From Tetraselmis striata (lineage: Eukaryota > Chlorophyta > Chlorodendrophyceae > Chlorodendrales > Chlorodendraceae), in assembly GCA_006384855.1 (NCBI GenBank), contig VCJN01002615.1:27797-91796 (forward strand): 64,000 bases of DNA. Reading direction: 5' to 3'. Shown in pieces: positions 10,430 to 60,634 of this stretch (position 1 is its first letter; each line of letters begins with the position of its first letter). The notes under the pieces were generated by a model that was not told the DNA's origin, ran no database searches, and worked only from the letters and a program-made list of their open reading frames with translations. Made by a program: the position numbers and the translations under genes.

Positions 10430-11735
10430 TTTTAAAAATAGTAAGGCCTATGGCAGGATGGGATTACTGCGGAGGCTTTAAGATTAGCGATACACTACGC
10501 CCGAATAGCCATTTTGGCAAGGCGTTGCTGGCCTTAATTAACGGGATATGGACTAAGAACTATATCCCCCAGCAATGGCGTAGCTCGGCCATAGTATCGG
10601 TGCCCCAAAAAGGCGATTCGACCCTTATGGACAATTATAGGGGAATTTCGATATTATGGGTGCCGTCATTACCTAACGCTTGTAAGACGTCTGCCAAGCG
10701 AAAGGGATAATCCGCCGTTCGCAGGCGGGTTTTATGCGGAATGAGGAGGGCCCCATGCAAGTCACCAGCTTGTTCGATACATCGCGGCTCGTCGCCAAGC
10801 GGCGGGTCTACCCACGCACGCGGGATTTATTGACTTCAGGAAGGCATATGACACCGTACCTCGTGAGCTTTTATTCCTAAAAATGCAAGCCATAGGAGTC
10901 ACGGGTAATATGCTTACCTGCATTAAAACTTTATGCATGGATAGTATGGTACGGGTTAAGACAAGGGTGGCCCCGGGAACACTATCAGACCCCATAACAA
11001 TATATAGCGTGGCCTCCGACAGGGGTGCCCCGCTTCCCCCGTGCGTCCCAATTAACATATTTATTAACGATATATTCCATGGGGTAGATCATCTAGGTTG
11101 TGATGTGCCGGGGCGCACCGACACATTATTAGTGGCAAGGCAACCACTAAGGGTGCCATGCCAGTTAAATACGCGGACGACGATGTTGGTATCACATGCT
11201 CGTTCGATTAACCTGCATGCCATGTTCACCCACTTCTCGCAATGGGCGGAGACCATTTTATTGGGTTTAGGGTACTCAAGTGTCGGGTGATGGCAGTAGG
11301 CCAACATTCCGACGAGACCGCGTTGAGACCCCGATGGGAGCTTGGTGGGGGGCGGGGGGGGGGGGGGGGGGGGGGGGGGGCGGATACCGGTTGTAAATGA
11401 ATATAGGTGCTTGGGTACGCTCACTAATTCGGATTTAGGTATGCGGCACGTAGTAGATGACCGGGTTAAGAAGGGTTCGGTATTAGTCCAGATACGGTAC
11501 TAGTCGGTGGACTTGCCATAATTACTATTAATATGCGTATGTCTGTGTTTAAAACCTGTGTACTATCGGGTATAACTTACGGGTGTGAAGTATGCGGTAT
11601 GGATAGAACTAGTGGCGCAAATAACTTACAGACCGTACTCAATCGGTCGTGCTCGCGGTGCCTTAACATTATAGCGGAGGGAGTAAAAACTCCCGTGGGG
11701 TGGCCACTGCACAGGTGATGCGGGAATTGGATATT
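10430..11735 (+). pseudogene. L1-clade reverse transcriptase remnant
   Basis: Successive frames encode recognisable L1-type reverse-transcriptase blocks: a segment ending SKAYG.DGITAEALR, then IPQQWRSSAIVSVPQKGD followed by NYRGISI, then FIDFRKAYDTVPRELLFLK, a weak GAPL block and KYADDDVGITC. The YADD motif corresponds to the polymerase active site. Frame changes between blocks and stop codons show that it is dead. A 27-base poly-G run at 11354-11380 interrupts the region after the YADD block. The sequence continues to 11735, where the 879-bp TIR element begins. Confidence 0.75.
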
Positions 11736-12825: not shown

Positions 12826-13679
12826 CCGCCGCCCAGATCGCGTAGCTGCCCTCAACCCCCTCCCACGCGACGTCACCGTTATGCCCGGGCTGTGGCGGGT
12901 CGCTTGTATCCGGCGGGGCGCCGCGCGATGTCTGCGCCTTCCGCCGATGGTGCGGCAGAACGCGCCGTTGACCCCGGGTCGCCGCCGCGCCCCAGTACAT
13001 CGTGCAGTATATCAGGCAGCCCCGGCGCATCGCGTGCGGCGGGAGCGTCGCCCGCGGCAACACCGTCCAGCGGCAGTGCACCGGACGCCACCCAGCCAAG
13101 GCCGAGCCCGCCCGCGGCTGCCGCTCCGCCGGCTCCCACGTACGCCCAGGCGGTGAGCCGGTCGTCGAGTCCCGAGTCCGCGACGGGCGCGGCAGGTACG
13201 ACCGGCGCGCGCGCTGCCTCGCCTGTGTCGTCGCCTCGCCGCAGTACTTTCAGCAGTATTTCGGGGCCCGGCGCGTCGCAGCGCGATCACGATGGCGCTC
13301 CGACCGGCCAGGAAGTCTCCGAGCGGCCCCAGCCGCGGCCGGCGGCAACCGCGGCCTAGCGCTCACCAGCCTCGATGCTCTCGCCCGCCTGCATTCCAGA
13401 CTACACGACAGCGGGCCGGCGCGACGGGGCGTAGCGCCGGCAGCGGCTTGGACAGTCGCCGACGCGCTTTCAGTCGCTGGCGTCGCCGCGGGCGCCGCGT
13501 GGGCGCCGAGGATTGACGCCGCAGCCAGGTCGCTCCAGCCCGCCCGCGTCAGGCACCACCCGGGCGACGTGTTGGCTTTCACCGAGGTCGCCGCCGCGTG
13601 GCTAGCCAAGGCGCGCGCCGTGCTGGCCGAGCGGCACCGCCGTCGGGGGTCGCGCCGCGCCGGTGGAGCTGGACAATAG
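12826..13679 (+). pseudogene. N-terminal region of the restriction-like-endonuclease LINE
   Basis: Two overlapping plus-strand frames make up this part. The first (to 13359) is Ser-, Pro- and Ala-rich, with MSAPSADGAAERAVD as its first clear Met-led segment. The second (to 13679) continues with a more ordered Ala-rich stretch (LARLHSRLHDSGPARRG). The switch from one frame to the other near 13340 suggests a frameshift. The antisense copy at 58-59.5 kb encodes the same order of segments, which supports this as real coding sequence. No zinc finger is visible. Confidence 0.55.
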
Positions 13680-15924
13680 TCAGTGCTGCCGTCGCCCGCA
13701 CTGCCGTCCGTCGCTGCGTTCCGGGGCGTCGCAGCGCCCCCGGTTGTTGCCCCCACGCCGCCAGAGGTGGGTGCACCGGCCGGCCACCCCGGTAGCCAGG
13801 CCTCACGGGCTCGGTATCCGCCCCCCCCCTACTCGCCCATCTCCAGCCGGCGACGGGGTGGGGTGGGGTGCGGTGGACCACCTCTCCGACGTGGACATGG
13901 TGCACATGCCGGCGGAGATGTCCATGGAGACGGCGGTGCCTATTGACTTACATGAAGCGTGGGCGGAGGCACAACGCTGCGTGAATGAGCGGGTGGTGGC
14001 GGCGATGGAGGCCGATGACCCCATGGTGTTGGATAGGGCGCTTAAGTGGAAGTACCTGCTGCCGCAATTGTTGCTTAGGGCCCCGAGCCGAGGCGGACGG
14101 CGGCGGCTACAAGCCTTGGCGTGGCGCTTCCGCGCCTTCGCGGAGAGGCGCATGACCGAACTCGTGCGCTCATGGGACGACGCGCGCACTGAGGCGTTCT
14201 ACGCCGGACATGCCCGCCAGCGTCGGACGGACGCCGATCTCTTTGCGGCGCTGCTTGTGGGCACCGCAGACACCGTTGTGGCGTTGGTGGAGGACGGAGA
14301 GCTCTCCCGAGCGGCGGGCCGACTATCTTCTAAGGGTATGGGCGACTTGTCCGATCCTGCTATCCTCGCCCAGCTGCGCGACAAGCACCCGTCCCGTAAC
14401 CACCCGATCCCAGACGCCGCGTATGACATTCCGGTGGACGAGGCCGCCCTGACGGTGGACATGCGCGTGCCGTACCAGCAACTCAAGCAGCACGTGGCGG
14501 CGGGGCCCTCAGGCATGCGCAACGAGTATCTCCGCTGCTTGGTGGGCGAATACGCCCCGGCGTCCGGGCCCGCGGCAGTCCGCGCCATGTCGGAGGTTGC
14601 CTCCATGTACCTCCAAGGTCGCCTGCCCGGGTGGTTCAACCGGCTCTTCGCGTCTGCTAGGCTCGTGGCACCGGTCAAGAAGCTAGGCGAGGGGAGGGCC
14701 CCGGACGTGCGGCCTGTGGCAATCGGGGAGGCGGAGCGGCGCGCAGCGGAGCGGGCAGTGGTGGAAAACATGAAGGAGGCATACGTGTCAGTGCTCGCTC
14801 CATCTCAGCTTGGCGTTGGCATTCCCGCGGGCGACTCTGTGCTCATCCACGGCGTCCGGCTCATCGCCGAGAAGCTTGGCCCACGTGCCGTCATCTTCCA
14901 CACAGACCTTCGCAACGCTTACAACGAGGCATGGCGCCGCACCATCATCCAACGCCACATCGACTGCTCTCCACTACACCCTGTCATCCCTGCGCTCCTA
15001 GCCTCCCTCTCCACGGATTCATATCTGGTCGTGGACGACCGGTCCGCCCCTCTGCGGTCGGAGGACGGCGTGCAACAGGGCGCACCTTTAGCCACGACTT
15101 CCTTTTGCGTCGCGATTCACCCCGAGGTGCAGCAGTGTGATACCACGTTGGAGGTCAATGACGGGGCGGCGCGCTTCAACGCCGACGATGGATTTCTGGT
15201 GGGCCTTCCGGAGCACGTTTGGCCGGCTCTTCACGCCTTCCGCACGTCCATCAAGGCGTCCGTGGGGCTTGAGGTGCGCTTCGACAAGATGCAGGCGTAC
15301 AGCGCTGACATGGAGGCCGCGCGGCGTGAGGCTCCGGCCGACATCGAGTGGCCCGAGCTAGATGGCCATCACGGCATCGCGGTCCTGAACGTGCCGCTCG
15401 GATCGCCAGAGTATGTGCAGGCGTACATGCGCGGCAAGGCGGAGGAGCTACGAGAGGAGGTGGACGCTAGCCTGAGCAAGCTTCTATCTGCCAAGCCCAG
15501 CCGTCGGTACACCCACGCCTTGCATCACCATGCATGGGCCCTGCTCAAGCACTGCATGCAACACAAGGCGGGGTATTGGCTCCGCAATTGTCTTCCGTCC
15601 GAGGAGGAGGCCTTTGCGGAGGCAGTGGATGCCACCATCCTTGCGGCGGTCGAACGGGTGCTAGGGGTCTCTTTTGATCCCTCCACGTACGGCACCGACA
15701 CCAATCCGGTGGTCACCGATATCTTGGCGGAGCTTTTGCACGACCCCGACCCCATGGCAGCGGAGGTGGCTACCTTGAGCGAGGATGCAGTGCTGGCTAG
15801 GGCGTGCAGCAGGCTTCACCTCCCCACTCGATTGAAGGGAGCTGGCATCCGCCGCATGGCTACCGTTCGTGATGCCGCCTTCGTCGGCTGCATGAATGCC
15901 ATCCTCCCAAGGTTCCGTTCCTGA
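13663..15924 (+). CDS. Reverse transcriptase of the restriction-like-endonuclease LINE
   Basis: A 753-codon frame, probably continuing from the preceding one by frameshift, since it has a GTG and no ATG at its start; the first internal ATG is near 13898. Reverse-transcriptase blocks are visible: AGPSGMRNEYLRCL (block like GPDGI), APVKKLGEGRAPDVRPVAIG, then FHTDLRNAYNEAWRR (catalytic Asp, with the N-A-Y/F-N signature common in CRE-like elements). GVQQGAPLA and ARFNADDGFLVG (catalytic Asp pair) follow. The product copies its own RNA at a nicked target. The frame stops at 15924, where homology continues in another frame. Confidence 0.85.
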   Translation: MELDNSQCCRRPHCRPSLRSGASQRPRLLPPRRQRWVHRPATPVARPHGLGIRPPPTRPSPAGDGVGWGAVDHLSDVDMVHMPAEMSMETAVPIDLHEAWAEAQRCVNERVVAAMEADDPMVLDRALKWKYLLPQLLLRAPSRGGRRRLQALAWRFRAFAERRMTELVRSWDDARTEAFYAGHARQRRTDADLFAALLVGTADTVVALVEDGELSRAAGRLSSKGMGDLSDPAILAQLRDKHPSRNHPIPDAAYDIPVDEAALTVDMRVPYQQLKQHVAAGPSGMRNEYLRCLVGEYAPASGPAAVRAMSEVASMYLQGRLPGWFNRLFASARLVAPVKKLGEGRAPDVRPVAIGEAERRAAERAVVENMKEAYVSVLAPSQLGVGIPAGDSVLIHGVRLIAEKLGPRAVIFHTDLRNAYNEAWRRTIIQRHIDCSPLHPVIPALLASLSTDSYLVVDDRSAPLRSEDGVQQGAPLATTSFCVAIHPEVQQCDTTLEVNDGAARFNADDGFLVGLPEHVWPALHAFRTSIKASVGLEVRFDKMQAYSADMEAARREAPADIEWPELDGHHGIAVLNVPLGSPEYVQAYMRGKAEELREEVDASLSKLLSAKPSRRYTHALHHHAWALLKHCMQHKAGYWLRNCLPSEEEAFAEAVDATILAAVERVLGVSFDPSTYGTDTNPVVTDILAELLHDPDPMAAEVATLSEDAVLARACSRLHLPTRLKGAGIRRMATVRDAAFVGCMNAILPRFRS

Positions 15925-30623: not shown

Positions 30624-30662
30624 CATGATTGAAATCCAAGAAAAAGGCCTATTAATATGATA

Positions 30663-33600
30663 CACCCCTCCACATAAGTCCGGGTTTTGCATTTTCGATC
30701 GCAAAGCGCATGCATGGGCGAGGATAACGCCGGCTGCGTGTGCATACATGCCAACTACAGTGGGAATAGTTCGGGCAAACGCCTATTGTGCGCTTTATAC
30801 CCACCCGCGCGACAACACGACCATTTGTGGGCGCCCTTGAAAAAACGCGAAATCATTGCATGATGCGTTGGCGCTAGAAAATTGTGGGTTGCGCCAACCG
30901 TCCAAACCTATGGAAATAGCGGCACTCGTCGCACCAAACTCGGTGAATACGGCCCTTGGCATAAGTTGCACACACCGTGCGTGTAGGCCACTGAAAGCAT
31001 GTCGCTATAGGCACGACGTGACACCCCAACGACAAGTTGGCCACTGTGGGGGGCAGTTTTGGGGTGAAAATGCTGCTGTTCCGGTGGCGAACGCACGTAG
31101 GAGAGGCGTTCGATGGCCCCCTTGGCGTAGGGCAATGCTCTACTATGGGGGCGCGTGGTGGAATGCCAGTTGCACCGTTTCGTGGGCGGGGTGGCGCGGT
31201 AGGGGCGTGGACTTTAATTAATATGAAATTCCTTGAAAAATGCTGTGGAAAATGGCATTTTGGCTGGTAGGTTTGTGTATCGCTAGGAGGCGGCACATGC
31301 CAAGTGTTGGTGGTCCGTGGTCATCCACACACATAACGCTCTCGCGCAACCGAGTATGGGGCTTAGACACGCACTTGGCGCAAAGCCACGCGCCCGACAT
31401 GGGTGGGCACATGAGGCAGTGAGGGGCAACTTGGATGATCATCTTTGGGGATTTTTTCCGGGGACAAAAAAAACGATTTTTGATATTGGAAGACTGATTG
31501 TGACGCAGATTTGAACGAGCAATTGCGTGGTATTTTTAAAAAGTTTTTCTGAGCAAACCCTGAGAAGTTATAGCGTTTTAAAGCCGAGGGGGTGTTGCTG
31601 AGCGTGGCCAACACTGATGCCATGTCAGTATCGCAACGCGACATGTACTAGCAGCCACCCACACGGCTGCAGCCCAACCAAATGCACCCGAGCCCCTCAC
31701 CAATGTGTTTCCTCACGCGTTCATGGCCATCCCGCCGTGTGGTTGTCTATTCACGCGCGTCGGCGTGTGCGCGATACCGACCCTGGTTTTGGTGCAGTTG
31801 CAGGCGACGCCCATCCACGCACCAAGTGCAGCGTGACACCCTAGTCAAAGGTCTTTAAGCTTCGGTTTGAGTCACTCGTTATGCAGGTCTTATAAAACCC
31901 TCTGAGATTCCAGGGTTTCATCTAATATAACCTACGTTCAGGTACCCTAGACTTCTGAAGTCTTGAGACTGCCGAAAAGGGACCCCAAACTTATGTGGAG
32001 GGGTGTGCTGGCCATATGTCATTCGGCCATATACGGCCGACGCGGCATGTTTGAATCATCCCAATGTTCCTACTGGCTGCATATGCCTATGGCGCATCCG
32101 CATGCGAGCCACGGGCTCGAAAGGGCTCACTGTCCCAGGACGCCTTCTTGCGACCTCGTCGAGCGCGCTTGGTGCGGCGCATAGTGCTGGCCATATGTCA
32201 TTCGGCCATATACGGCCGACGCGGCATGTTTGAATCATCCCAATGTTCCTACTGGCTGCATATGCCTATGGCGCATCCGCATGCGAGCCACGGGCTCGAA
32301 AGGGCTCACTGTCCCAGGACGCCTTCTTGCGACCTCGTCGAGCGCGCTTGGTGCGGCGCACAGTGCTGGCCATATGTCATTCGGCCATATACGGCCGACG
32401 CGGCATGTTTGAATCATCCCAATGTTCCTACTGGCTGCATATGCCTATGGCGCATCCGCATGCGAGCCACGGGCTCGAAAGGGCTCACTGTCCCAGGACG
32501 CCTTCTTGCGACCTCGTCGAGCGCGCTTGGTGCGGCGCACTGTGCTGGCCATATGTCATTCGGCCATATACGGCCGACGCGGCATGTTTGAATCATCCCA
32601 ATGTTCCTACTGGCTGCATATGCCTATGGCGCATCCGCATGCGAGCCACGGGCTCGAAAGGGCTCACTGTCCCAGGACGCCTTCTTGCGACCTCGTCGAG
32701 CGCGCTTGGTGCGGCGCACACCCCTCCACATAAGTCCGGGTTTTGCATTTTCGATCGCAAAGCGCATGCATGGGCGAGGATAACGCCGGCTGCGTGTGCA
32801 TACATGCCAACTACAGTGGGAATAGTTCGGGCAAACGCCTATTGTGCGCTTTATACCCACCCGCGCGACAACACGACCATTTGTGGGCGCCCTTGAAAAA
32901 ACGCGAAATCATTGCATGATGCGTTGGCGCTAGAAAATTGTGGGTTGCGCCAACCGTCCAAACCTATGGAAATAGCGGCACTCGTCGCACCAAACTCGGT
33001 GAATACGGCCCTTGGCATAAGTTGCACACACCGTGCGTGTAGGCCACTGAAAGCATGTCGCTATAGGCACGACGTGACACCCCAACGACAAGTTGGCCAC
33101 TGTGGGGGGCAGTTTTGGGGTGAAAATGCTGCTGTTCCGGTGGCGAACGCACGTAGGAGAGGCGTTCGATGGCCCCCTTGGCGTAGGGCAATGCTCTACT
33201 ATGGGGGCGCGTGGTGGAATGCCAGTTGCACCGTTTCGTGGGCGGGGTGGCGCGGTAGGGGCGTGGACTTTAATTAATATGAAATTCCTTGAAAAATGCT
33301 GTGGAAAATGGCATTTTGGCTGGTAGGTTTGTGTATCGCTAGGAGGCGGCACATGCCAAGTGTTGGTGGTCCGTGGTCATCCACACACATAACGCTCTCG
33401 CGCAACCGAGTATGGGGCTTAGACACGCACTTGGCGCAAAGCCACGCGCCCGACATGGGTGGGCACATGAGGCAGTGAGGGGCAACTTGGATGATCATCT
33501 TTGGGGATTTTTTCCGGGGACAAAAAAAACGATTTTTGATATTGGAAGACTGATTTTGACGCAGATTTGAACGAGCAATTGCGTGGTATTTTTAAAAAGT

Positions 33601-36116
33601 TTTTCTGAGCAAACCCTGAGAAGTTATAGCGTTTTAAAGCCGAGGGGGTGTTGCTGAGCGTGGCCAACACTGATGCCATGTCAGTATCGCAACGCGACAT
33701 GTACTAGCAGCCACCCACACGGCTGCAGCCCAACCAAATGCACCCGAGCCCCTCACCAATGTGTTTCCTCACGCGTTCATGGCCATCCCGCCGTGTGGTT
33801 GTCTATTCACGCGCGTCGGCGTGTGCGCGATACCGACCCTGGTTTTGGTGCAGTTGCAGGCGACGCCCATCCACGCACCAAGTGCAGCGTGACACCCTAG
33901 TCAAAGGTCTTTAAGCTTCGGTTTGAGTCACTCGTTATGCAGGTCTTATAAAACCCTCTGAGATTCCAGGGTTTCATCTAATATAACCTACGTTCAGGTA
34001 CCCTAGACTTCTGAAGTCTTGAGACTGCCGAAAAGGGACCCCAAACTTATGTGGAGGGGTGTGCTGGCCATATGTCATTCGGCCATATACGGCCGACGCG
34101 GCATGTTTGAATCATCCCAATGTTCCTACTGGCTGCATATGCCTATGGCGCATCCGCATGCGAGCCACGGGCTCGAAAGGGCTCACTGTCCCAGGACGCC
34201 TTCTTGCGACCTCGTCGAGCGCGCTTGGTGCGGCGCATAGTGCTGGCCATATGTCATTCGGCCATATACGGCCGACGCGGCATGTTTGAATCATCCCAAT
34301 GTTCCTACTGGCTGCATATGCCTATGGCGCATCCGCATGCGAGCCACGGGCTCGAAAGGGCTCACTGTCCCAGGACGCCTTCTTGCGACCTCGTCGAGCG
34401 CGCTTGGTGCGGCGCACAGTGCTGGCCATATGTCATTCGGCCATATACGGCCGACGCGGCATGTTTGAATCATCCCAATGTTCCTACTGGCTGCATATGC
34501 CTATGGCGCATCCGCATGCGAGCCACGGGCTCGAAAGGGCTCACTGTCCCAGGACGCCTTCTTGCGACCTCGTCGAGCGCGCTTGGTGCGGCGCACTGTG
34601 CTGGCCATATGTCATTCGGCCATATACGGCCGACGCGGCATGTTTGAATCATCCCAATGTTCCTACTGGCTGCATATGCCTATGGCGCATCCGCATGCGA
34701 GCCACGGGCTCGAAAGGGCTCACTGTCCCAGGACGCCTTCTTGCGACCTCGTCGAGCGCGCTTGGTGCGGCGCACACCCCTCCACATAAGTCCGGGTTTT
34801 GCATTTTCGATCGCAAAGCGCATGCATGGGCGAGGATAACGCCGGCTGCGTGTGCATACATGCCAACTACAGTGGGAATAGTTCGGGCAAACGCCTATTG
34901 TGCGCTTTATACCCACCCGCGCGACAACACGACCATTTGTGGGCGCCCTTGAAAAAACGCGAAATCATTGCATGATGCGTTGGCGCTAGAAAATTGTGGG
35001 TTGCGCCAACCGTCCAAACCTATGGAAATAGCGGCACTCGTCGCACCAAACTCGGTGAATACGGCCCTTGGCATAAGTTGCACACACCGTGCGTGTAGGC
35101 CACTGAAAGCATGTCGCTATAGGCACGACGTGACACCCCAACGACAAGTTGGCCACTGTGGGGGGCAGTTTTGGGGTGAAAATGCTGCTGTTCCGGTGGC
35201 GAACGCACGTAGGAGAGGCGTTCGATGGCCCCCTTGGCGTAGGGCAATGCTCTACTATGGGGGCGCGTGGTGGAATGCCAGTTGCACCGTTTCGTGGGCG
35301 GGGTGGCGCGGTAGGGGCGTGGACTTTAATTAATATGAAATTCCTTGAAAAATGCTGTGGAAAATGGCATTTTGGCTGGTAGGTTTGTGTATCGCTAGGA
35401 GGCGGCACATGCCAAGTGTTGGTGGTCCGTGGTCATCCACACACATAACGCTCTCGCGCAACCGAGTATGGGGCTTAGACACGCACTTGGCGCAAAGCCA
35501 CGCGCCCGACATGGGTGGGCACATGAGGCAGTGAGGGGCAACTTGGATGATCATCTTTGGGGATTTTTTCCGGGGACAAAAAAACGATTTTTGATATTGG
35601 AAGACTGATTTTGACGCAGATTTGAACGAGCAATTGCGTGGTATTTTTAAAAAGTTTTTCTGAGCAAACCCTGAGAAGTTATAGCGTTTTAAAGCCGAGG
35701 GGGTGTTGCTGAGCGTGGCCAACACTGATGCCATGTCAGTATCGCAACGCGACATGTACTAGCAGCCACCCACACGGCTGCAGCCCAACCAAATGCACCC
35801 GAGCCCCTCACCAATGTGTTTCCTCACGCGTTCATGGCCATCCCGCCGTGTGGTTGTCTATTCACGCGCGTCGGCGTGTGCGCGATACCGACCCTGGTTT
35901 TGGTGCAGTTGCAGGCGACGCCCATCCACGCACCAAGTGCAGCGTGACACCCTAGTCAAAGGTCTTTAAGCTTCGGTTTGAGTCACTCGTTATGCAGGTC
36001 TTATAAAACCCTCTGAGATTCCAGGGTTTCATCTAATATAACCTACGTTCAGGTACCCTAGACTTCTGAAGTCTTGAGACTGCCGAAAAGGGACCCCAAA
36101 CTTATGTGGAGGGGTG
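30663..36116 (+). mobile_element. Array elements 1-3 (type A) with their multi-copy spacers
   Basis: Three nearly identical 1.34-kb elements share diagnostic variants: TTTTCGATC near the start, GTTCCGGTGGCG in the middle, and CCCTCTGAGATT near the end. Element 1 differs from 2 and 3 at single sites such as GATTGTGACG near 31498. Each contains a 121-codon plus-strand frame (30856-31221 in element 1) ending at a TGA-separated boundary. An overlapping 140-codon minus-strand frame (31296-30874) also contains a WCDECRYFH cluster. Neither resembles a known protein. A TATA-like CTTATAAAACCC occurs about 125 bp before the right end. Confidence 0.9.
32006..32718. repeat. Spacer block 1: four 176-bp units joined by 3-bp linkers
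   Basis: Unit starts TGCTGGCCATATG and ends GCGGCGCA. The three joints read TAG, CAG and CTG. The same three joints, in the same order, recur in the second spacer block (34062-34774). Each unit has a near-palindrome CGGCCATATACGGCCG near its start. Confidence 0.9.
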
Positions 36117-37186
36117 TGCTGGCCATATGTCATTCGGCCATATACGGCCGACGCGGCATGTTTGAATCATCCCAATGTTCCTACTGGCTGCATATGCCTA
36201 TGGCGCATCCGCATGCGAGCCACGGGCTCGAAAGGGCTCACTGTCCCAGGACGCCTTCTTGCGACCTCGTCGAGCGCGCTTGGTGCGGCGCATAGTGCTG
36301 GCCATATGTCATTCGGCCATATACGGCCGACGCGGCATGTTTGAATCATCCCAATGTTCCTACTGGCTGCATATGCCTATGGCGCATCCGCATGCGAGCC
36401 ACGGGCTCGAAAGGGCTCACTGTCCCAGGACGCCTTCTTGCGACCTCGTCGAGCGCGCTTGGTGCGGCGCATAGTGCTGGCCATATGTCATTCGGCCATA
36501 TACGGCCGACGCGGCATGTTTGAATCATCCCAATGTTCCTACTGGCTGCATATGCCTATGGCGCATCCGCATGCGAGCCACGGGCTCGAAAGGGCTCACT
36601 GTCCCAGGACGCCTTCTTGCGACCTCGTCGAGCGCGCTTGGTGCGGCGCATAGTGCTGGCCATATGTCATTCGGCCATATACGGCCGACGCGGCATGTTT
36701 GAATCATCCCAATGTTCCTACTGGCTGCATATGCCTATGGCGCATCCGCATGCGAGCCACGGGCTCGAAAGGGCTCACTGTCCCAGGACGCCTTCTTGCG
36801 ACCTCGTCGAGCGCGCTTGGTGCGGCGCACAGTGCTGGCCATATGTCATTCGGCCATATACGGCCGACGCGGCATGTTGAATCATCCCAATGTTCCTACT
36901 GGCTGCATATGCCTATGGCGCATCCGCATGCGAGCCACGGGCTCGAAAGGGCTCACTGTCCCAGGACGCCTTCTTGCGACCTCGTCGAGCGCGCTTGGTG
37001 CGGCGCACTGTGCTGGCCATATGTCATTCGGCCATATACGGCCGACGCGGCATGTTTGAATCATCCCAATGTTCCTACTGGCTGCATATGCCTATGGCGC
37101 ATCCGCATGCGAGCCACGGGCTCGAAAGGGCTCACTGTCCCAGGACGCCTTCTTGCGACCTCGTCGAGCGCGCTTGGTGCGGCGCA
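36117..37186. repeat. Spacer block 3: six 176-bp units
   Basis: Joints read TAG, TAG, TAG, CAG and CTG, so compared with the four-copy blocks only the TAG-joined unit has expanded. The fifth unit lacks one T (GCATGTTGAATC at about 36871). Confidence 0.9.
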
Positions 37187-38531
37187 CACCCCTCCACATA
37201 AGTCCGGGGTTTTGCATTTTCGATCGCAAAGCGCATGCATGGGCGAGGATAACGCCGGCTGCATGTGCATACATGCCAACTACAGTGGGAATAGTTCGGG
37301 CAAACGCCTATTGTGCGCTTTATACCCACCCGCGCGACAACACGACCATTTGTGGGCGCCCTTGAAAAAACGCGAAATCATTGCATGATGCGTTGGCGCT
37401 AGAAAATTGTGGGTTGCGCCAACCGTCCAAACCTATGGAAATAGCGGCACTCGTCGCACCAAACTCGGTGAATACGGCCCTTGGCATAAGTTGCACACAC
37501 CGTGCGTGTAGGCCACTGAAAGCATGTCGCTATAGGCACGACGTGACACCCCAACGACAAGTTGGCCACTGTGGGGGGCAGTTTTGGGGTGAAAATGCTG
37601 CTGTTTCTGTGGCGAACGCACGTAGGAGAGGCGTTCGATGGCCCCCTTGGCGTAGGGCAATGCTCTACTATGGGGGCGCGTGGTGGAATGCCAGTTGCAC
37701 CGTTTCGTGGGCGGGGTGGCGCGGTAGGGGCGTGGACTTTAATTAATATGAAATTCCTTGAAAAATGCTGTGGAAAATGGCATTTTGGCTGGTAGGTGTG
37801 TGTATCGCTAGGAGGCGGCACATGCCAAGTGTTGGTGGTCCGTGGTCATCCACACACATAACGCTCTCGCGCAACCGAGTATGGGGCTTAGACACGCACT
37901 TGGCGCAAAGCCACGCGCCCGACATGGGTGGGCACATGAGGCAGTGAGGGGCAACTTGGATGATCATCTTTGGGGATTTTTCCCGGGGACCCAAAAAATC
38001 GATTTTTGATATTGGAAGACTGATTTTGACGCAGATTTGAACGAGGAATTGCGTGGTATTTTTAAAAAGTTTTTCTGAGCAAACCCTGAGAAGTTATAGC
38101 GTTTTAAAGCCGAGGGGGTGTTGCTGAGCGTGGCCAACACTGATGCCATGTCAGTATCGCAACGCGACATGTACTAGCAGCCACCCACACGGCTGCACCC
38201 CAACCAAATGCACCCGAGCCCCTCACCAATGTGTTTCCTCACGCGTTCATGGCCATCCCGCCGTGTGGTTGTCTATTCACGCGCGTCGGCGTGTGCGCGA
38301 TACCGACCCTGGTTTTGGTGCAGTTGCAGGCGACGCCCATCCACGCACCAAGTGCAGCGTGACACCCTAGTCAAAGGTCTTTAAGCTTCGGTTTGAGCCA
38401 CTCGTTATGCAGGTCTTATAAAACCCTATGAGATTCCAGGGTTTCATCTCATATAACCTACGTTCAGGTACCCTAGACTTCTGAAGTCTTGAGACTGCCG
38501 AAAAGGGACCCCAAACTTATGTGGAGGGGTG
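37187..38531 (+). mobile_element. Array element 4 (A/B hybrid)
   Basis: Its left part has type A variants (TTTTCGATC, CCAGTTGCACC), while its right part has type B variants (CCCTATGAGATT, CATCTCATAT). The change lies between about 37.8 and 38.4 kb. This is consistent with unequal crossing-over or conversion between the two types. Confidence 0.85.
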
Positions 38532-38741
38532 TGCTGGCCATATGTCATTCGGCCATATACGGCCGTGCTGGCCATATGTCATTCGGCCATATACGGCCGA
38601 CGCGGCGTGTTTGAATCATCCCAATGTTCCTACTGGCTGCATATGCCTATGGCGCATCCGCATGCGAGCCACGGGCTCGAAAGGGCTCACTGTCCCAGGA
38701 CGCCTTCTTGCGACCTCGTCGAGCGCGCTTGGTGCGGCGCA
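38532..38741. repeat. Spacer block 4: one unit plus a 34-bp partial duplicate
   Basis: The first 34 bases of the unit (from TGCTGGCCATATG to ACGGCCG) occur twice in a row. It marks the border between the multi-copy and single-copy halves of the array. Confidence 0.9.
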
Positions 38742-41700
38742 CACCCCTCCACATAAGTCGGGGTTTTGCATTTTAGATCGCAAAGCGCATGCACGGGCGA
38801 GGATAACGCCGGCTGCATGTGCATACATGCCAACTACAGTGGGAATAGTTCGGGCAAACGCCTATTGTGCGCTTTATACCCACCCGCGCGACAACACGAC
38901 CATTTGTGGGCGCCCTTTAAAAAACGCGAAATCATTGCATGATGCGTTGGCGCTAGAAAATTGCGGGTTGCGCCAACCGTCCAAACCTATGGAAATAGCG
39001 GCACTCGTCGCACCAAACTCGGTGAATACGGCCCTTGGCATAAGTTGCACACACCGTGCGTGTAGGCCACTGAAAGCATGTCGCTATAGGCACGACGTGA
39101 CACCCCAACGACAAGTTGGCCACTGTGGGGGGCAGTTTTGGGGTGAAAATGCTGCTGTTTCTGTGGCAAACGCACGTAGGAGAGGCGTTCGATGGCCCCC
39201 TTGGCGTAGGGCAATGCTCTACTATGGGGGCGCGTGGTGGAATGCCAGCTGCACCGTTTCGTGGGCGGGGTGGCGCGGTAGGGGCGTGGACTTTAATTAA
39301 TATGAAATTCCTTGAAAAATGCTGTGGAAAATGGCATTTTGGCTGGTAGGTGTGTGTATCGCTAGGAGGCGGCACATGCCAAGTGTTGGTGGTCCGTGGT
39401 CATCCACACACATAACGCTCTCGCGCAACCGAGTATGGGGCTTAGACACGCACTTGGCGCAAAGCCACGCGCCCGACATGGGTGGGCACATGAGGCAGTG
39501 AGGGGCAACTTGGATGATCATCTTTGGGGATTTTTCCCGGGGCCCCAAAAATCGATTTTTGATATTGGAAGACTGATTTTGACGCAGATTTGAACGAGGA
39601 ATTGCGTGGTATTTTTAAAAAGTTTTTCTGAGCAAACCCTGAGAAGTTATAGCGTTTTGAAGCCGAGGGGGTGTTGCTGAGCGTGGCCAACACTGATGCC
39701 ATGTCAGTATCGCAACGCGACATGTACTAGCAGCCACCCACACGGCTGCACCCCAACCAAATGCACCCGAGCCCCTCACCAATGTGTTTCCTCACGCGTT
39801 CATGGCCATCCCGCCGTGTGGTTGTCTATTCACGCGCGTCGGCGTGTGCGCGATACCGACCCTGGTTTTGGTGCAGTTGCAGGCGACGCCCATCCACGCA
39901 CCAAGTGCAGCGTGACACCCTAGTCAAAGGTCTTTAAGCTTCGGTTTGAGCCACTCGTTATGCAGGTCTTATAAAACCCTATGAGATTCCAGGGTTTCAT
40001 CTCATATAACCTACGTTCAGGTACCCTAGACTTCTGAAGTCTTGAGACTGCCGAAAAGGGACCCCAAACTTATGTGGAGGGGTGTGCTGGCCATATGTCA
40101 TTCGGCCATATACGGCCGACGCGGCGTGTTTGAATCATCCCAATGTTCCTACTGGCTGCATATGCCTATGGCGCATCCGCATGCGAGCCACGGGCTCGAA
40201 AGGGCTCACTGTCCCAGGACGCCTTCTTGCGACCTCGTCGAGCGCGCTTGGTGCGGCGCACACCCCTCCACATAAGTCGGGGTTTTGCATTTTAGATCGC
40301 AAAGCGCATGCACGGGCGAGGATAACGCCGGCTGCATGTGCATACATGCCAACTACAGTGGGAATAGTTCGGGCAAACGCCTATTGTGCGCTTTATACCC
40401 ACCCGCGCGACAACACGACCATTTGTGGGCGCCCTTTAAAAAACGCGAAATCATTGCATGATGCGTTGGCGCTAGAAAATTGCGGGTTGCGCCAACCGTC
40501 CAAACCTATGGAAATAGCGGCACTCGTCGCACCAAACTCGGTGAATACGGCCCTTGGCATAAGTTGCACACACCGTGCGTGTAGGCCACTGAAAGCATGT
40601 CGCTATAGGCACGACGTGACACCCCAACGACAAGTTGGCCACTGTGGGGGGCAGTTTTGGGGTGAAAATGCTGCTGTTTCTGTGGCAAACGCACGTAGGA
40701 GAGGCGTTCGATGGCCCCCTTGGCGTAGGGCAATGCTCTACTATGGGGGCGCGTGGTGGAATGCCAGCTGCACCGTTTCGTGGGCGGGGTGGCGCGGTAG
40801 GGGCGTGGACTTTAATTAATATGAAATTCCTTGAAAAATGCTGTGGAAAATGGCATTTTGGCTGGTAGGTGTGTGTATCGCTAGGAGGCGGCACATGCCA
40901 AGTGTTGGTGGTCCGTGGTCATCCACACACATAACGCTCTCGCGCAACCGAGTATGGGGCTTAGACACGCACTTGGCGCAAAGCCACGCGCCCGACATGG
41001 GTGGGCACATGAGGCAGTGAGGGGCAACTTGGATGATCATCTTTGGGGATTTTTCCCGGGGCCCCAAAAATCGATTTTTGATGTTGGAAGACTGATTTTG
41101 ACGCAGATTTGAACGAGGAATTGCGTGGTATTTTTAAAAAGTTTTTCTGAGCAAACCCTGAGAAGTTATAGCGTTTTGAAGCCGAGGGGGTGTTGCTGAG
41201 CGTGGCCAACACTGATGCCATGTCAGTATCGCAACGCGACATGTACTAGCAGCCACCCACACGGCTGCACCCCAACCAAATGCACCCGAGCCCCTCACCA
41301 ATGTGTTTCCTCACGCGTTCATGGCCATCCCGCCGTGTGGTTGTCTATTCACGCGCGTCGGCGTGTGCGCGATACCGACCCTGGTTTTGGTGCAGTTGCA
41401 GGCGACGCCCATCCACGCACCAAGTGCAGCGTGACACCCTAGTCAAAGGTCTTTAAGCTTCGGTTTGAGCCACTCGTTATGCAGGTCTTATAAAACCCTA
41501 TGAGATTCCAGGGTTTCATCTCATATAACCTACGTTCAGGTACCCTAGACTTCTGAAGTCTTGAGACTGCCGAAAAGGGACCCCAAACTTATGTGGAGGG
41601 GTGTGCTGGCCATATGTCATTCGGCCATATACGGCCGACGCGGCGTGTTTGAATCATCCCAATGTTCCTACTGGCTGCATATGCCTATGGCGCATCCGCA

Positions 41701-44700
41701 TGCGAGCCACGGGCTCGAAAGGGCTCACTGTCCCAGGACGCCTTCTTGCGACCTCGTCGAGCGCGCTTGGTGCGGCGCACACCCCTCCACATAAGTCGGG
41801 GTTTTGCATTTTAGATCGCAAAGCGCATGCACGGGCGAGGATAACGCCGGCTGCATGTGCATACATGCCAACTACAGTGGGAATAGTTCGGGCAAACGCC
41901 TATTGTGCGCTTTATACCCACCCGCGCGACAACACGACCATTTGTGGGCGCCCTTTAAAAAACGCGAAATCATTGCATGATGCGTTGGCGCTAGAAAATT
42001 GCGGGTTGCGCCAACCGTCCAAACCTATGGAAATAGCGGCACTCGTCGCACCAAACTCGGTGAATACGGCCCTTGGCATAAGTTGCACACACCGTGCGTG
42101 TAGGCCACTGAAAGCATGTCGCTATAGGCACGACGTGACACCCCAACGACAAGTTGGCCACTGTGGGGGGCAGTTTTGGGGTGAAAATGCTGCTGTTTCT
42201 GTGGCAAACGCACGTAGGAGAGGCGTTCGATGGCCCCCTTGGCGTAGGGCAATGCTCTACTATGGGGGCGCGTGGTGGAATGCCAGCTGCACCGTTTCGT
42301 GGGCGGGGTGGCGCGGTAGGGGCGTGGACTTTAATTAATATGAAATTCCTTGAAAAATGCTGTGGAAAATGGCATTTTGGCTGGTAGGTGTGTGTATCGC
42401 TAGGAGGCGGCACATGCCAAGTGTTGGTGGTCCGTGGTCATCCACACACATAACGCTCTCGCGCAACCGAGTATGGGGCTTAGACACGCACTTGGCGCAA
42501 AGCCACGCGCCCGACATGGGTGGGCACATGAGGCAGTGAGGGGCAACTTGGATGATCATCTTTGGGGATTTTTCCCGGGGCCCCAAAAATCGATTTTTGA
42601 TGTTGGAAGACTGATTTTGACGCAGATTTGAACGAGGAATTGCGTGGTATTTTTAAAAAGTTTTTCTGAGCAAACCCTGAGAAGTTATAGCGTTTTGAAG
42701 CCGAGGGGGTGTTGCTGAGCGTGGCCAACACTGATGCCATGTCAGTATCGCAACGCGACATGTACTAGCAGCCACCCACACGGCTGCACCCCAACCAAAT
42801 GCACCCGAGCCCCTCACCAATGTGTTTCCTCACGCGTTCATGGCCATCCCGCCGTGTGGTTGTCTATTCACGCGCGTCGGCGTGTGCGCGATACCGACCC
42901 TGGTTTTGGTGCAGTTGCAGGCGACGCCCATCCACGCACCAAGTGCAGCGTGACACCCTAGTCAAAGGTCTTTAAGCTTCGGTTTGAGCCACTCGTTATG
43001 CAGGTCTTATAAAACCCTATGAGATTCCAGGGTTTCATCTCATATAACCTACGTTCAGGTACCCTAGACTTCTGAAGTCTTGAGACTGCCGAAAAGGGAC
43101 CCCAAACTTATGTGGAGGGGTGTGCTGGCCATATGTCATTCGGCCATATACGGCCGACGCGGCGTGTTTGAATCATCCCAATGTTCCTACTGGCTGCATA
43201 TGCCTATGGCGCATCCGCATGCGAGCCACGGGCTCGAAAGGGCTCACTGTCCCAGGACGCCTTCTTGCGACCTCGTCGAGCGCGCTTGGTGCGGCGCACA
43301 CCCCTCCACATAAGTCGGGGTTTTGCATTTTAGATCGCAAAGCGCATGCACGGGCGAGGATAACGCCGGCTGCATGTGCATACATGCCAACTACAGTGGG
43401 AATAGTTCGGGCAAACGCCTATTGTGCGCTTTATACCCACCCGCGCGACAACACGACCATTTGTGGGCGCCCTTTAAAAAACGCGAAATCATTGCATGAT
43501 GCGTTGGCGCTAGAAAATTGCGGGTTGCGCCAACCGTCCAAACCTATGGAAATAGCGGCACTCGTCGCACCAAACTCGGTGAATACGGCCCTTGGCATAA
43601 GTTGCACACACCGTGCGTGTAGGCCACTGAAAGCATGTCGCTATAGGCACGACGTGACACCCCAACGACAAGTTGGCCACTGTGGGGGGCAGTTTTGGGG
43701 TGAAAATGCTGCTGTTTCTGTGGCAAACGCACGTAGGAGAGGCGTTCGATGGCCCCCTTGGCGTAGGGCAATGCTCTACTATGGGGGCGCGTGGTGGAAT
43801 GCCAGCTGCACCGTTTCGTGGGCGGGGTGGCGCGGTAGGGGCGTGGACTTTAATTAATATGAAATTCCTTGAAAAATGCTGTGGAAAATGGCATTTTGGC
43901 TGGTAGGTGTGTGTATCGCTAGGAGGCGGCACATGCCAAGTGTTGGTGGTCCGTGGTCATCCACACACATAACGCTCTCGCGCAACCGAGTATGGGGCTT
44001 AGACACGCACTTGGCGCAAAGCCACGCGCCCGACATGGGTGGGCACATGAGGCAGTGAGGGGCAACTTGGATGATCATCTTTGGGGATTTTTCCCGGGGC
44101 CCCAAAAATCGATTTTTGATGTTGGAAGACTGATTTTGACGCAGATTTGAACGAGGAATTGCGTGGTATTTTTAAAAAGTTTTTCTGAGCAAACCCTGAG
44201 AAGTTATAGCGTTTTGAAGCCGAGGGGGTGTTGCTGAGCGTGGCCAACACTGATGCCATGTCAGTATCGCAACGCGACATGTACTAGCAGCCACCCACAC
44301 GGCTGCACCCCAACCAAATGCACCCGAGCCCCTCACCAATGTGTTTCCTCACGCGTTCATGGCCATCCCGCCGTGTGGTTGTCTATTCACGCGCGTCGGC
44401 GTGTGCGCGATACCGACCCTGGTTTTGGTGCAGTTGCAGGCGACGCCCATCCACGCACCAAGTGCAGCGTGACACCCTAGTCAAAGGTCTTTAAGCTTCG
44501 GTTTGAGCCACTCGTTATGCAGGTCTTATAAAACCCTATGAGATTCCAGGGTTTCATCTCATATAACCTACGTTCAGGTACCCTAGACTTCTGAAGTCTT
44601 GAGACTGCCGAAAAGGGACCCCAAACTTATGTGGAGGGGTGTGCTGGCCATATGTCATTCGGCCATATACGGCCGACGCGGCGTGTTTGAATCATCCCAA

Positions 44701-46160
44701 TGTTCCTACTGGCTGCATATGCCTATGGCGCATCCGCATGCGAGCCACGGGCTCGAAAGGGCTCACTGTCCCAGGACGCCTTCTTGCGACCTCGTCGAGC
44801 GCGCTTGGTGCGGCGCACACCCCTCCACATAAGTCGGGGTTTTGCATTTTAGATCGCAAAGCGCATGCACGGGCGAGGATAACGCCGGCTGCATGTGCAT
44901 ACATGCCAACTACAGTGGGAATAGTTCGGGCAAACGCCTATTGTGCGCTTTATACCCACCCGCGCGACAACACGACCATTTGTGGGCGCCCTTTAAAAAA
45001 CGCGAAATCATTGCATGATGCGTTGGCGCTAGAAAATTGCGGGTTGCGCCAACCGTCCAAACCTATGGAAATAGCGGCACTCGTCGCACCAAACTCGGTG
45101 AATACGGCCCTTGGCATAAGTTGCACACACCGTGCGTGTAGGCCACTGAAAGCATGTCGCTATAGGCACGACGTGACACCCCAACGACAAGTTGGCCACT
45201 GTGGGGGGCAGTTTTGGGGTGAAAATGCTGCTGTTTCTGTGGCAAACGCACGTAGGAGAGGCGTTCGATGGCCCCCTTGGCGTAGGGCAATGCTCTACTA
45301 TGGGGGCGCGTGGTGGAATGCCAGCTGCACCGTTTCGTGGGCGGGGTGGCGCGGTAGGGGCGTGGACTTTAATTAATATGAAATTCCTTGAAAAATGCTG
45401 TGGAAAATGGCATTTTGGCTGGTAGGTGTGTGTATCGCTAGGAGGCGGCACATGCCAAGTGTTGGTGGTCCGTGGTCATCCACACACATAACGCTCTCGC
45501 GCAACCGAGTATGGGGCTTAGACACGCACTTGGCGCAAAGCCACGCGCCCGACATGGGTGGGCACATGAGGCAGTGAGGGGCAACTTGGATGATCATCTT
45601 TGGGGATTTTTCCCGGGGCCCCAAAAATCGATTTTTGATGTTGGAAGACTGATTTTGACGCAGATTTGAACGAGGAATTGCGTGGTATTTTTAAAAAGTT
45701 TTTCTGAGCAAACCCTGAGAAGTTATAGCGTTTTGAAGCCGAGGGGGTGTTGCTGAGCGTGGCCAACACTGATGCCATGTCAGTATCGCAACGCGACATG
45801 TACTAGCAGCCACCCACACGGCTGCACCCCAACCAAATGCACCCGAGCCCCTCACCAATGTGTTTCCTCACGCGTTCATGGCCATCCCGCCGTGTGGTTG
45901 TCTATTCACGCGCGTCGGCGTGTGCGCGATACCGACCCTGGTTTTGGTGCAGTTGCAGGCGACGCCCATCCACGCACCAAGTGCAGCGTGACACCCTAGT
46001 CAAAGGTCTTTAAGCTTCGGTTTGAGCCACTCGTTATGCAGGTCTTATAAAACCCTATGAGATTCCAGGGTTTCATCTCATATAACCTACGTTCAGGTAC
46101 CCTAGACTTCTGAAGTCTTGAGACTGCCGAAAAGGGACCCCAAACTTATGTGGAGGGGTG
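38742..46160 (+). mobile_element. Array elements 5-9 (type B), each followed by a single spacer
   Basis: Five 1343-bp elements repeat with a 1519-bp period. Elements 6-9 look identical; element 5 differs at GATATTGG versus GATGTTGG. Type B variants are TTTTAGATC, TTTCTGTGGCAAACG and CCAGCTGCACC. A TGA-to-TTA change (CCCTTTAAAAAACG) joins two frames into a 245-codon ORF that starts in the spacer (for example 40082-40819). The high identity argues for recent homogenisation. No protein family is recognisable. Confidence 0.9.
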
Positions 46161-46336
46161 TGCTGGCCATATGTCATTCGGCCATATACGGCCGACGCGG
46201 CGTGTTTGAATCATCCCAATGTTCCTACTGGCTGCATATGCCTATGGCGCATCCGCATGCGAGCCACGGGCTCGAAAGGGCTCACTGTCCCAGGACGCCT
46301 TCTTGCGACCTCGTCGAGCGCGCTTGGTGCGGCGCA

Positions 46337-47679
46337 CACCCCTCCACATAAGTCGGGGTTTTGCATTTTAGATCGCAAAGCGCATGCACGGGCGAGGATA
46401 ACGCCGGCTGCATGTGCATACATGCCAACTACAGTGGGAATAGTTCGGGCAAACGCCTATTGTGCGCTTTATACCCACCCGCGCGACAACACGACCATTT
46501 GTGGGCGCCCTTTAAAAAACGCGAAATCATTGCATGATGCGTTGGCGCTAGAAAATTGCGGGTTGCGCCAACCGTCCAAACCTATGGAAATAGCGGCACT
46601 CGTCGCACCAAACTCGGTGAATACGGCCCTTGGCATAAGTTGCACACACCGTGCGTGTAGGCCACTGAAAGCATGTCGCTATAGGCACGACGTGACACCC
46701 CAACGACAAGTTGGCCACTGTGGGGGGCAGTTTTGGGGTGAAAATGCTGCTGTTTCTGTGGCAAACGCACGTAGGAGAGGCGTTCGATGGCCCCCTTGGC
46801 GTAGGGCAATGCTCTACTATGGGGGCGCGTGGTGGAATGCCAGCTGCACCGTTTCGTGGGCGGGGTGGCGCGGTAGGGGCGTGGACTTTAATTAATATGA
46901 AATTCCTTGAAAAATGCTGTGGAAAATGGCATTTTGGCTGGTAGGTGTGTGTATCGCTAGGAGGCGGCACATGCCAAGTGTTGGTGGTCCGTGGTCATCC
47001 ACACACATAACGCTCTCGCGCAACCGAGTATGGGGCTTAGACACGCACTTGGCGCAAAGCCACGCGCCCGACATGGGTGGGCACATGAGGCAGTGAGGGG
47101 CAACTTGGATGATCATCTTTGGGGATTTTTCCCGGGGCCCCAAAAATCGATTTTTGATATTGGAAGACTGATTTTGACGCAGATTTGAACGAGGAATTGC
47201 GTGGTATTTTTAAAAAGTTTTTCTGAGCAAACCCTGAGAAGTTATAGCGTTTTAAAGCCGAGGGGGTGTTGCTGAGCGTGGCCAACACTGATGCCATGTC
47301 AGTATCGCAACGCGACATGTACTAGCAGCCACCCACACGGCTGCACCCCAACCAAATGCACCCGAGCCCCTCACCAATGTGTTTCCTCACGCGTTCATGG
47401 CCATCCCGCCGTGTGGTTGTCTATTCACGCGCGTCGGCGTGTGCGCGATACCGACCCTGGTTTTGGTGCAGTTGCAGGCGACGCCCATCCACGCACCAAG
47501 TGCAGCGTGACACCCTAGTCAAAGGTCTTTAAGCTTCGGTTTGAGCCACTCGTTATGCAGGTCTTATAAAACCCTCTGAGATTCCAGGGTTTCATCTAAT
47601 ATAACCTACGTTCAGGTACCCTAGACTTCTGAAGTCTTGAGACTGCCGAAAAGGGACCCCAAACTTATGTGGAGGGGTG
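46337..47679 (+). mobile_element. Array element 10 (type B body, type A right end)
   Basis: It is type B through GTTTGAGCCACTCG (about 47.55 kb) but has the type A CCCTCTGAGATT and CATCTAATAT in its last 110 bases, and TTTTAAAGCC at 47.25 kb. The rightmost end of the array therefore matches the leftmost elements. Its right TIR is followed by TA. Confidence 0.9.
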
Positions 47680-47681
47680 TA

Positions 47682-60592: not shown

Positions 60593-60634
<42 letters not shown>

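Follow-up and report, generated by a model that had tools for sequence, protein, structure and literature searches.

How a tandem array that alternates a transposon-like element with satellite-like spacers can begin and end exactly at transposon termini is the question raised by a locus of the green alga Tetraselmis striata. The window, i.e., the whole stretch of DNA analyzed here, comprises 64,000 nucleotides (assembly GCA_006384855.1, contig VCJN01002615.1, positions 27,797 to 91,796 of the forward strand), and the array, spanning 30663..47679, consists of ten head-to-tail copies of an element, E, of 1342-1345 bp, with nine spacers between them. Very probably, this array is a multimer, (E-S)n-E, where S denotes the spacer sequence, and its unit is a non-autonomous representative of a Tc1/mariner family that is composite-like and has long terminal direct repeats. 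The parent form is TA-[E']-transposase gene-[E']-TA, in which E' is a non-coding repeat of about 1.35 kb with terminal inverted repeats (TIRs) at both of its own ends. The initial annotation, made from the letters of the window, had missed that the spacer sits where this sister family has a transposase gene, and that the family belongs to Tc1/mariner.

All ten window copies of E have perfect 17-bp inverted ends (CACCCCTCCACATAAGT) and differ among themselves at 24 sites. E itself starts with CA and finishes with TG, and the internal junctions read E/TG...CA/E, while TA stands directly outside both ends of the array. The longer spacers contain four, four and six units of the 176-bp sequence S with a period of 179 bp, and the 210-bp spacer corresponds to about 1.2 units, namely a single S unit with a 34-bp duplication. 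The features of the locus are the following:

30661..30662, no strand: outer left TA, target-site duplication
30663..32005, + strand: E1, 1343 bp, with TATAA at 31891, 115 bp from the right end
32006..32718, + strand: spacer 1, four S units
32182..32184, + strand: S-S linker TAG, footprint-like
32361..32363, + strand: S-S linker CAG, footprint-like
32540..32542, + strand: S-S linker CTG, footprint-like
32719..34061, + strand: E2
34062..34774, + strand: spacer 2, four S units, linkers TAG, CAG, CTG
34775..36116, + strand: E3, 1342 bp
36117..37186, + strand: spacer 3, six S units, linkers TAG, TAG, TAG, CAG, CTG
37187..38531, + strand: E4, 1345 bp, outside both array lineages in the tree
38532..38741, + strand: spacer 4, one S unit with a 34-bp duplication
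38742..40084, + strand: E5
40085..40260, + strand: spacer 5, one S, 176 bp
40261..41603, + strand: E6
41604..41779, + strand: spacer 6, one S
41780..43122, + strand: E7
43123..43298, + strand: spacer 7, one S
43299..44641, + strand: E8
44642..44817, + strand: spacer 8, one S
44818..46160, + strand: E9
46161..46336, + strand: spacer 9, one S
46337..47679, + strand: E10
47680..47681, no strand: outer right TA, target-site duplication

Three claims of the initial annotation are borne out by these coordinates: the ten elements of about 1.34 kb with 17-bp inverted ends, the internal junctions with CA and TG in place of TA, and the array that begins and ends exactly at E termini flanked by TA, which also holds at seven other array loci (L009-L015). 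Its description of the spacers as 176 bp long is correct for five of the nine and fails for the other four, which measure 713, 713, 1070 and 210 bp. No gene was recognized in E or S of the window, where the only frame scanned, one of 245 codons running across E and S, has no Pfam match.

The genome searched for further copies amounts to 224 Mb in 2903 contigs. The 19-mer formed by TA and the TIR occurs 832 times in it and the reversed control not once, so that these ends are not a product of chance. A first search for E led to 38 loci in addition to the window array, 31 of them with one E and seven with arrays, which hold two E (four loci), three E, five E, and at least two E running into a contig end. 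The outer ends of these arrays are E ends with TA in all 13 cases present, the fourteenth lying beyond the contig end, and the position of the E-S junction is constant among them. Single copies have TA at both true ends in 30 of 31 loci; moreover, one E end reads CG rather than CA/TG before TA in L033 and L043. Exact E-S junctions number 52 on 17 contigs, and further arrays are made by an older subfamily whose E and S are 93-95% and 94-95% identical, respectively, to those of the window. When 15 end sets drawn from the first 100 of the 832 matches were paired by hand, 12 spans deviated by at most 62 bp from nE+(n-1)S, one (contig C121) by 158 bp, and two (C221 and C40), which are cases of E', did not fit. 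As a separate observation, two E loci about 22 kb apart on contig C2471 (L040 and L041) are flanked on either side by 1.5 kb of sequence that is 99.5-99.9% identical between them and represent either a segmental duplication or a duplication of the assembly.

An array of such similar units could also be an artifact in which repeats were collapsed or falsely joined during assembly, given that highly similar repeats are difficult to assemble. This explanation was rejected as extremely improbable, since the spacers are unlike in size and in linkers, 24 sites differ among the ten copies of E, and other loci, whose flanking sequences are different, show this architecture as well.

The identity of the family is provided by the misfit on contig C221 (locus L047), where an end pair 4027 bp apart encloses E' (1347 bp), an internal region, I, of 1333 bp, and a second E'. 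Both E' copies are identical over 1347 bp, with TA on the outside and TG...CA on the inside, and I contains a single transposase frame of 411 aa filling 1233 of the 1333 bp. Its product matches HTH_Tnp_Tc3_2 and DDE_3, both over the Pfam cut-offs, and resembles the catalytic domain of Sleeping Beauty with an expectation value of 1.2e-18. All 23 sequences of an alignment, chosen from 48 proteins, have D209, D313 and E349, with 35 residues separating D313 and E349 (DD35E). From its sequence, the E'-family transposase is classified as a Tc1/mariner-type, DD35E enzyme with an open frame and a full predicted catalytic triad. E and E' share the 17-bp TIR, and they are 56% identical over 1334 positions, compared with 40-44% in 12 shuffles. 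The longest stop-free frames in E' have 104 and 68 codons, and no Pfam match was obtained at an expectation value ≤1 for E' frames of 104, 68 and 77 codons. Likewise, among seven of the 46 other frames of L047, which were scanned for a second gene, none has a Pfam match at that threshold. Both E and E' contain TATAA 115 bp from the right end, a motif which is a promoter candidate only, and TATAA also occurs at 80 bp in E and at 146 and 438 bp in E'.

Matches to the transposase number 107 in the genome, fragments included, and many of them stand in tandem with a period of about 2680 bp and open frames, as on contigs C1257 (ten full copies), C211 (eight) and C1788 (five). Thus, E'-I units also form multimers. 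E' and I together measure 2680 bp, and contig C704 has the I region itself repeated with a period of 1336 bp. Among the longest contigs of the protein relatives, 12 of 45 (proteins of 30-100% identity) fall at 2650-2800 bp, compared with two and one in the adjacent 150-bp bins, and a closed loop of one repeat plus the gene would be a source of contigs of this size. Two EukProt proteins labeled jgi/Tetstr1 hold pieces of the transposase, aligned with 91% and 77% identity over 20% and 25%, respectively, of the transposase's length. Scans of viral contigs with the transposase and with its alignment gave no confirmed match, and a scan of genome contigs gave one weak bacterial match of 31%, which was not used.

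Two more distant transposase loci may be noted in their own right. At L054, where the transposase is about 40% identical and the gene decayed, a 1358-bp repeat lies on one side (470-1827) and an internally deleted copy on the other (3136-3454); its TIR core, CACATAAGT, is common to E, beyond it the 43% identity to E is at shuffle level, and no TA was found at definable ends. This locus is a decayed relative, of supporting value only. At L055, with a transposase of 28% identity, no direct repeat was found between the two sides at an expectation value ≤1e-5, the one 36-bp match having a value of 0.032.

Direct repeats that are nearly identical, solo repeats and tandem arrays also characterize long terminal repeat (LTR) elements, and E might accordingly be read as the LTR, S as the internal region, and single E as the solo LTR of a retroelement resembling terminal-repeat retrotransposons in miniature (TRIM). 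LTR retrotransposons, including TRIM, have TG...CA ends and target duplications of 4-6 bp. The family described here has CA...TG ends, TIRs of 17-22 bp and a TA duplication, and the internal region of its sister family encodes a Tc1/mariner transposase; the retroelement was thus rejected, and its probability is practically negligible.

Insertion into TA is documented by counterparts of occupied sites. The three-E array L010 has an exact single-TA counterpart without the array on contig C1667, and the two-E array L014 has one on C803 (26 bases exact, one occurrence). For the two-E array L012, the counterpart lies on its own contig at a distance of about 1 kb, in a copy of the target with 95.6% identity, again with a single TA. 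Contiguous empty matches also exist for L013 and for the single-E locus L016 (on C1178 and C1531), and the C221 element lies inside a dispersed repeat with at least 37 contiguous empty copies of 87-88% among the matches listed. Single and multimeric forms occur, moreover, at one and the same site, since L011 (E-S-E) and L020 (single E, on another contig) share flanks that are 98.4-98.8% identical over the aligned stretches, E included, and one of 1343 sites distinguishes the E of L020 from the leading E of L011. For the window site, no empty allele was found among the matches listed. Its right flank recurs on contig C1316 (L057, 32200-32900) from the same TA onward. The left side of L057 is the end of a dispersed repeat found at no fewer than 39 other places (81-89%), and two different elements may meet at one TA there.

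The spacers carry a second type of record. At the loci examined, all 13 S-S junctions contain exactly three bases (TAG five times, CAG five times and CTG three times). A genome-wide pattern permitting 0-9 bases found 167 S-S junctions, and a hand count of the first 100 gave CAG 68, CG 17, CTG 13, CATG 1 and CAGG 1. The I-I junctions, on two contigs, read CAG in six of six cases. Tc1/mariner excision is described as leaving overhangs of 2-3 bases, with the Sleeping Beauty footprint being C(A/T)GTA (PMC3878927), and a CAG footprint is also given in PMC8151067. The linkers CAG, CTG, CG and CATG, as sequences, point indirectly to E having left S-E-S, or E' having left I-E'-I, because E ends in CA...TG and such scars are those to be expected.

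The occurrence of S in tandem in several arrays could also suggest that a 179-bp satellite came first and that E was inserted into it many times. Against this, the position of the E-S junction is constant, and the TA that insertion creates is absent from it. Furthermore, the transposase region, which is not a satellite, also forms I-CAG-I tandems, and in the E loci examined S adjoins E or another S, save for three stray matches to its short end motif; one stray S start motif is the 34-bp duplication of spacer 4. An original satellite was thus rejected as very improbable. The suggestion of the initial annotation that a transposon had seeded a satellite is sustained in part, in that the S-S tandems resemble scars of E excision.

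Returning to the reading of the array as a multimer of a composite-like Tc1/mariner family, a plausible life cycle can be outlined. The transposase would pair any left TIR with any right TIR, so that its cargo could be either a single E or the whole E-(S-E)n, the latter being placed in a TA. When repeats recombine homologously, E-S-E would be converted into a single E or units would be added, and a single E, which retains both TIRs and its TA flanks, would stay mobile as a solo repeat. Excision of an internal E would join the neighboring spacers with a footprint of 2-4 nucleotides, giving S-CAG-S or I-CAG-I, and the 179-bp satellite could then arise from the joined S units by amplification through unequal exchange. 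The transposase of autonomous copies may be driven, in an LTR-like manner, by a promoter located in the upstream repeat, and the inner TG/CA would presumably protect the inner ends. Mobilization of E by the E'-family transposase, and any order of these events in the window array, would belong to the same reconstruction.

Whether the window array arrived as a multimer or grew where it stands depends on the relationships among its copies. In a tree of 58 of 59 E copies, from which the truncated L015 copy was omitted, single-E and array copies are intermixed. The first three window copies (W1-W3) cluster with L009_1 (support 100/98) and W5-W10 with one another (100/97), W4 belonging to neither cluster, so that the window copies fall into at least two lineages. 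Such a non-uniform array suggests that pieces of arrays were probably exchanged or moved between loci. An alternative with a real, if smaller than even, chance is that only single E transposes and that multimers grow in place through recombination with E-S circles outside the chromosome or with E-S-E arrays at ectopic positions; a resident single-E insertion would never be altered at its outer ends, which explains their perfect TA flanks. This alternative is favored by the occurrence of E-S-E and E at one site (L011/L020), by the mixture of single and array copies in the tree, and by the fact that 25 of 28 array copies are nearest to a copy in their own array. On the other hand, the grouping of W1-W3 with L009_1 and not with W5-W10 looks as if pieces of several lineages had been swapped between loci. 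Furthermore, neither E'-I-E', with its identical 1347-bp repeats at one TA, nor the three multimers with exact single-TA counterparts need a single-E intermediate, and neither excludes one. The nearest-relative pattern fits growth in place, homogenization, or movement from uniform arrays alike.

Several observations weigh against the reading of the window array as an inserted multimer of this family, among them the nearest-relative pattern itself, with W4, L009_1 and L011_1 as the exceptions and L011_1 nearest to L020 at the same site. Empty counterparts show insertion into TA and not arrival as a multimer. The empty junction of C221 was not found within three mismatches, and six of 12 joined-flank sites (the window, L009, C40, L017, L019 and L024) have no contiguous empty match among the matches listed, which consist largely of dispersed repeats. 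The linkers have been amplified together with the arrays, so that independent excisions are far fewer than 167 and small in number, and the TAG linkers, five of the 11 in the window, require a base change. The footprints also suggest that inner E copies can still leave despite TG/CA. No autonomous copy bearing the window's own E subfamily was found in the genome, and what ties this E to E' is the shared TIR together with the 56% identity. Descent of S from the transposase region by deletion was suggested by a collinear alignment and was rejected as not significant, as 21 and 18 of 300 shuffles are as good and the reverse-complement control of I scores higher. Finally, the initial annotation had regarded elements elsewhere without TA as contradicting its proposal; TA is present at both ends in 30 of 31 single copies, and L043 (one of 31) has TG in its place on one side.

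Taken together, multimer insertion is likely, not proven. All three forms that the initial annotation proposed to look for genome-wide, namely single E, E-S-E and empty TA sites, were found. Its idea that a compound E-S-E unit had been integrated at one TA and then expanded is well supported as a general process by E-S-E, three-E and five-E arrays at other TA sites, by the three single-TA counterparts and by the E'-transposase-E' locus, whereas the window array itself may have arrived as a multimer or grown in place.

Elsewhere in the window, a 1561-aa frame at 144-4829 (+) has copia-type RVT_2, integrase and GAG-pre-integrase domains with a C-5 cytosine DNA methylase match upstream, and may be a retrotransposon carrying a piece of a DNA methyltransferase. 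A 753-aa frame at 13663-15924 (+) has a weak RVT_1 match under the cut-off, and runs of about 34 G and 40 C lie at 11347-11380 and 60595-60634, respectively.

Compared with known systems, the family shares with Tc1/mariner elements such as Sleeping Beauty the TA duplication, the TIRs, the HTH_Tnp_Tc3_2 and DDE_3 domains, the catalytic-domain match and the C(A/T)G footprints. Tc1/mariner elements normally have the transposase gene inside one TIR pair, whereas here the gene is flanked by two repeats, each complete with its own TIRs. Bacterial composite transposons, as they are described in PMC9587614, likewise have a central segment between two transposon-like repeats, movable as one, but there the flanking insertion sequences encode the transposase, whereas the repeats of the E' plan are non-coding and the transposase is central. 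Coe1 of sugar beet, with a Tnp2 transposase within putative LTRs, is a different case (PMC2426827). In Drosophila virilis, Tetris has been reported as a DNA transposon that gave rise to a satellite in tandem arrays (PMC4079207). In the E/S arrays, by contrast, it is the spacer, the sequence between the repeats, that forms the satellite unit, and footprint-type linkers connect the units. A double-insertion model for tandem arrays seeded by DNA transposons has reportedly been proposed by McGurk and Barbash. None of the titles and abstracts among the entries listed reports a Tc1/mariner transposon bounded by long direct repeats; Repbase and the majority of subscription journals lie outside the coverage of this literature search.

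The closest precedent is KolobokP, an animal group of the Kolobok superfamily with the structure LTDR-INT-LTDR, where LTDR stands for long terminal direct repeat and INT for the internal region (Kojima and Bao 2022, Mob DNA 13:24, PMC9587614). The initial annotation, which knew of no described family with such a structure, had thus missed this precedent for the architecture. According to that description, KolobokP has long direct repeats with their own short TIRs around an internal transposase gene, as seen here in L047, and also solo repeats, multimers of the form (LTDR-INT)n-LTDR, INT-INT junctions explained by excision of a repeat, and non-autonomous versions, all of which have their equivalents in the algal family. 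KolobokP differs in its Kolobok transposase, its target duplications of 3-5 bp (TTAA in the superfamily) and its repeats of about 450 or 660 bp (PMC9587614), whereas the E/E' family has a Tc3_2/DDE_3 transposase, TA, repeats of about 1.35 kb, C(A/T)G-type footprints and a green algal host. The E/E' family is, therefore, not a member of KolobokP. Its authors regard KolobokP as without parallel among DNA transposons and suggest a His-Me finger homing endonuclease, encoded in INT, as the inducer of unequal crossover (PMC9587614); no such endonuclease was found in L047 among the transposase and the seven of 46 other frames scanned, although a nuclease could be supplied to the E' family in trans.

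It can tentatively be proposed, with a confidence slightly short of an even balance, that a Tc1/mariner lineage evolved the life cycle of KolobokP independently and without an endonuclease. The gene would lie outside any single TIR pair, the inner TG/CA would favor the outer ends and keep the composite together, multimers, with their many intact transposase genes, would act as master loci, and repeats would be shed as mobile solo units. If true, the formation of multimers needs no homing endonuclease, contrary to the role proposed in KolobokP; multimers without an endonuclease in the element provide, in any case, a natural comparison for that proposal. The algal family also offers a readable route from transposon to satellite, since the scars that separate its satellite units correspond to the footprint of excision. 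Moreover, it brings an LTR-like plan, comprising direct repeats, solo repeats and tandem arrays, into a green alga and into a major superfamily of cut-and-paste transposons, and this plan, present in animal KolobokP and in an algal Tc1/mariner family, probably arose at least twice. Its importance lies in what the bracketing repeats yield, namely arrays, mobile single repeats and a satellite.

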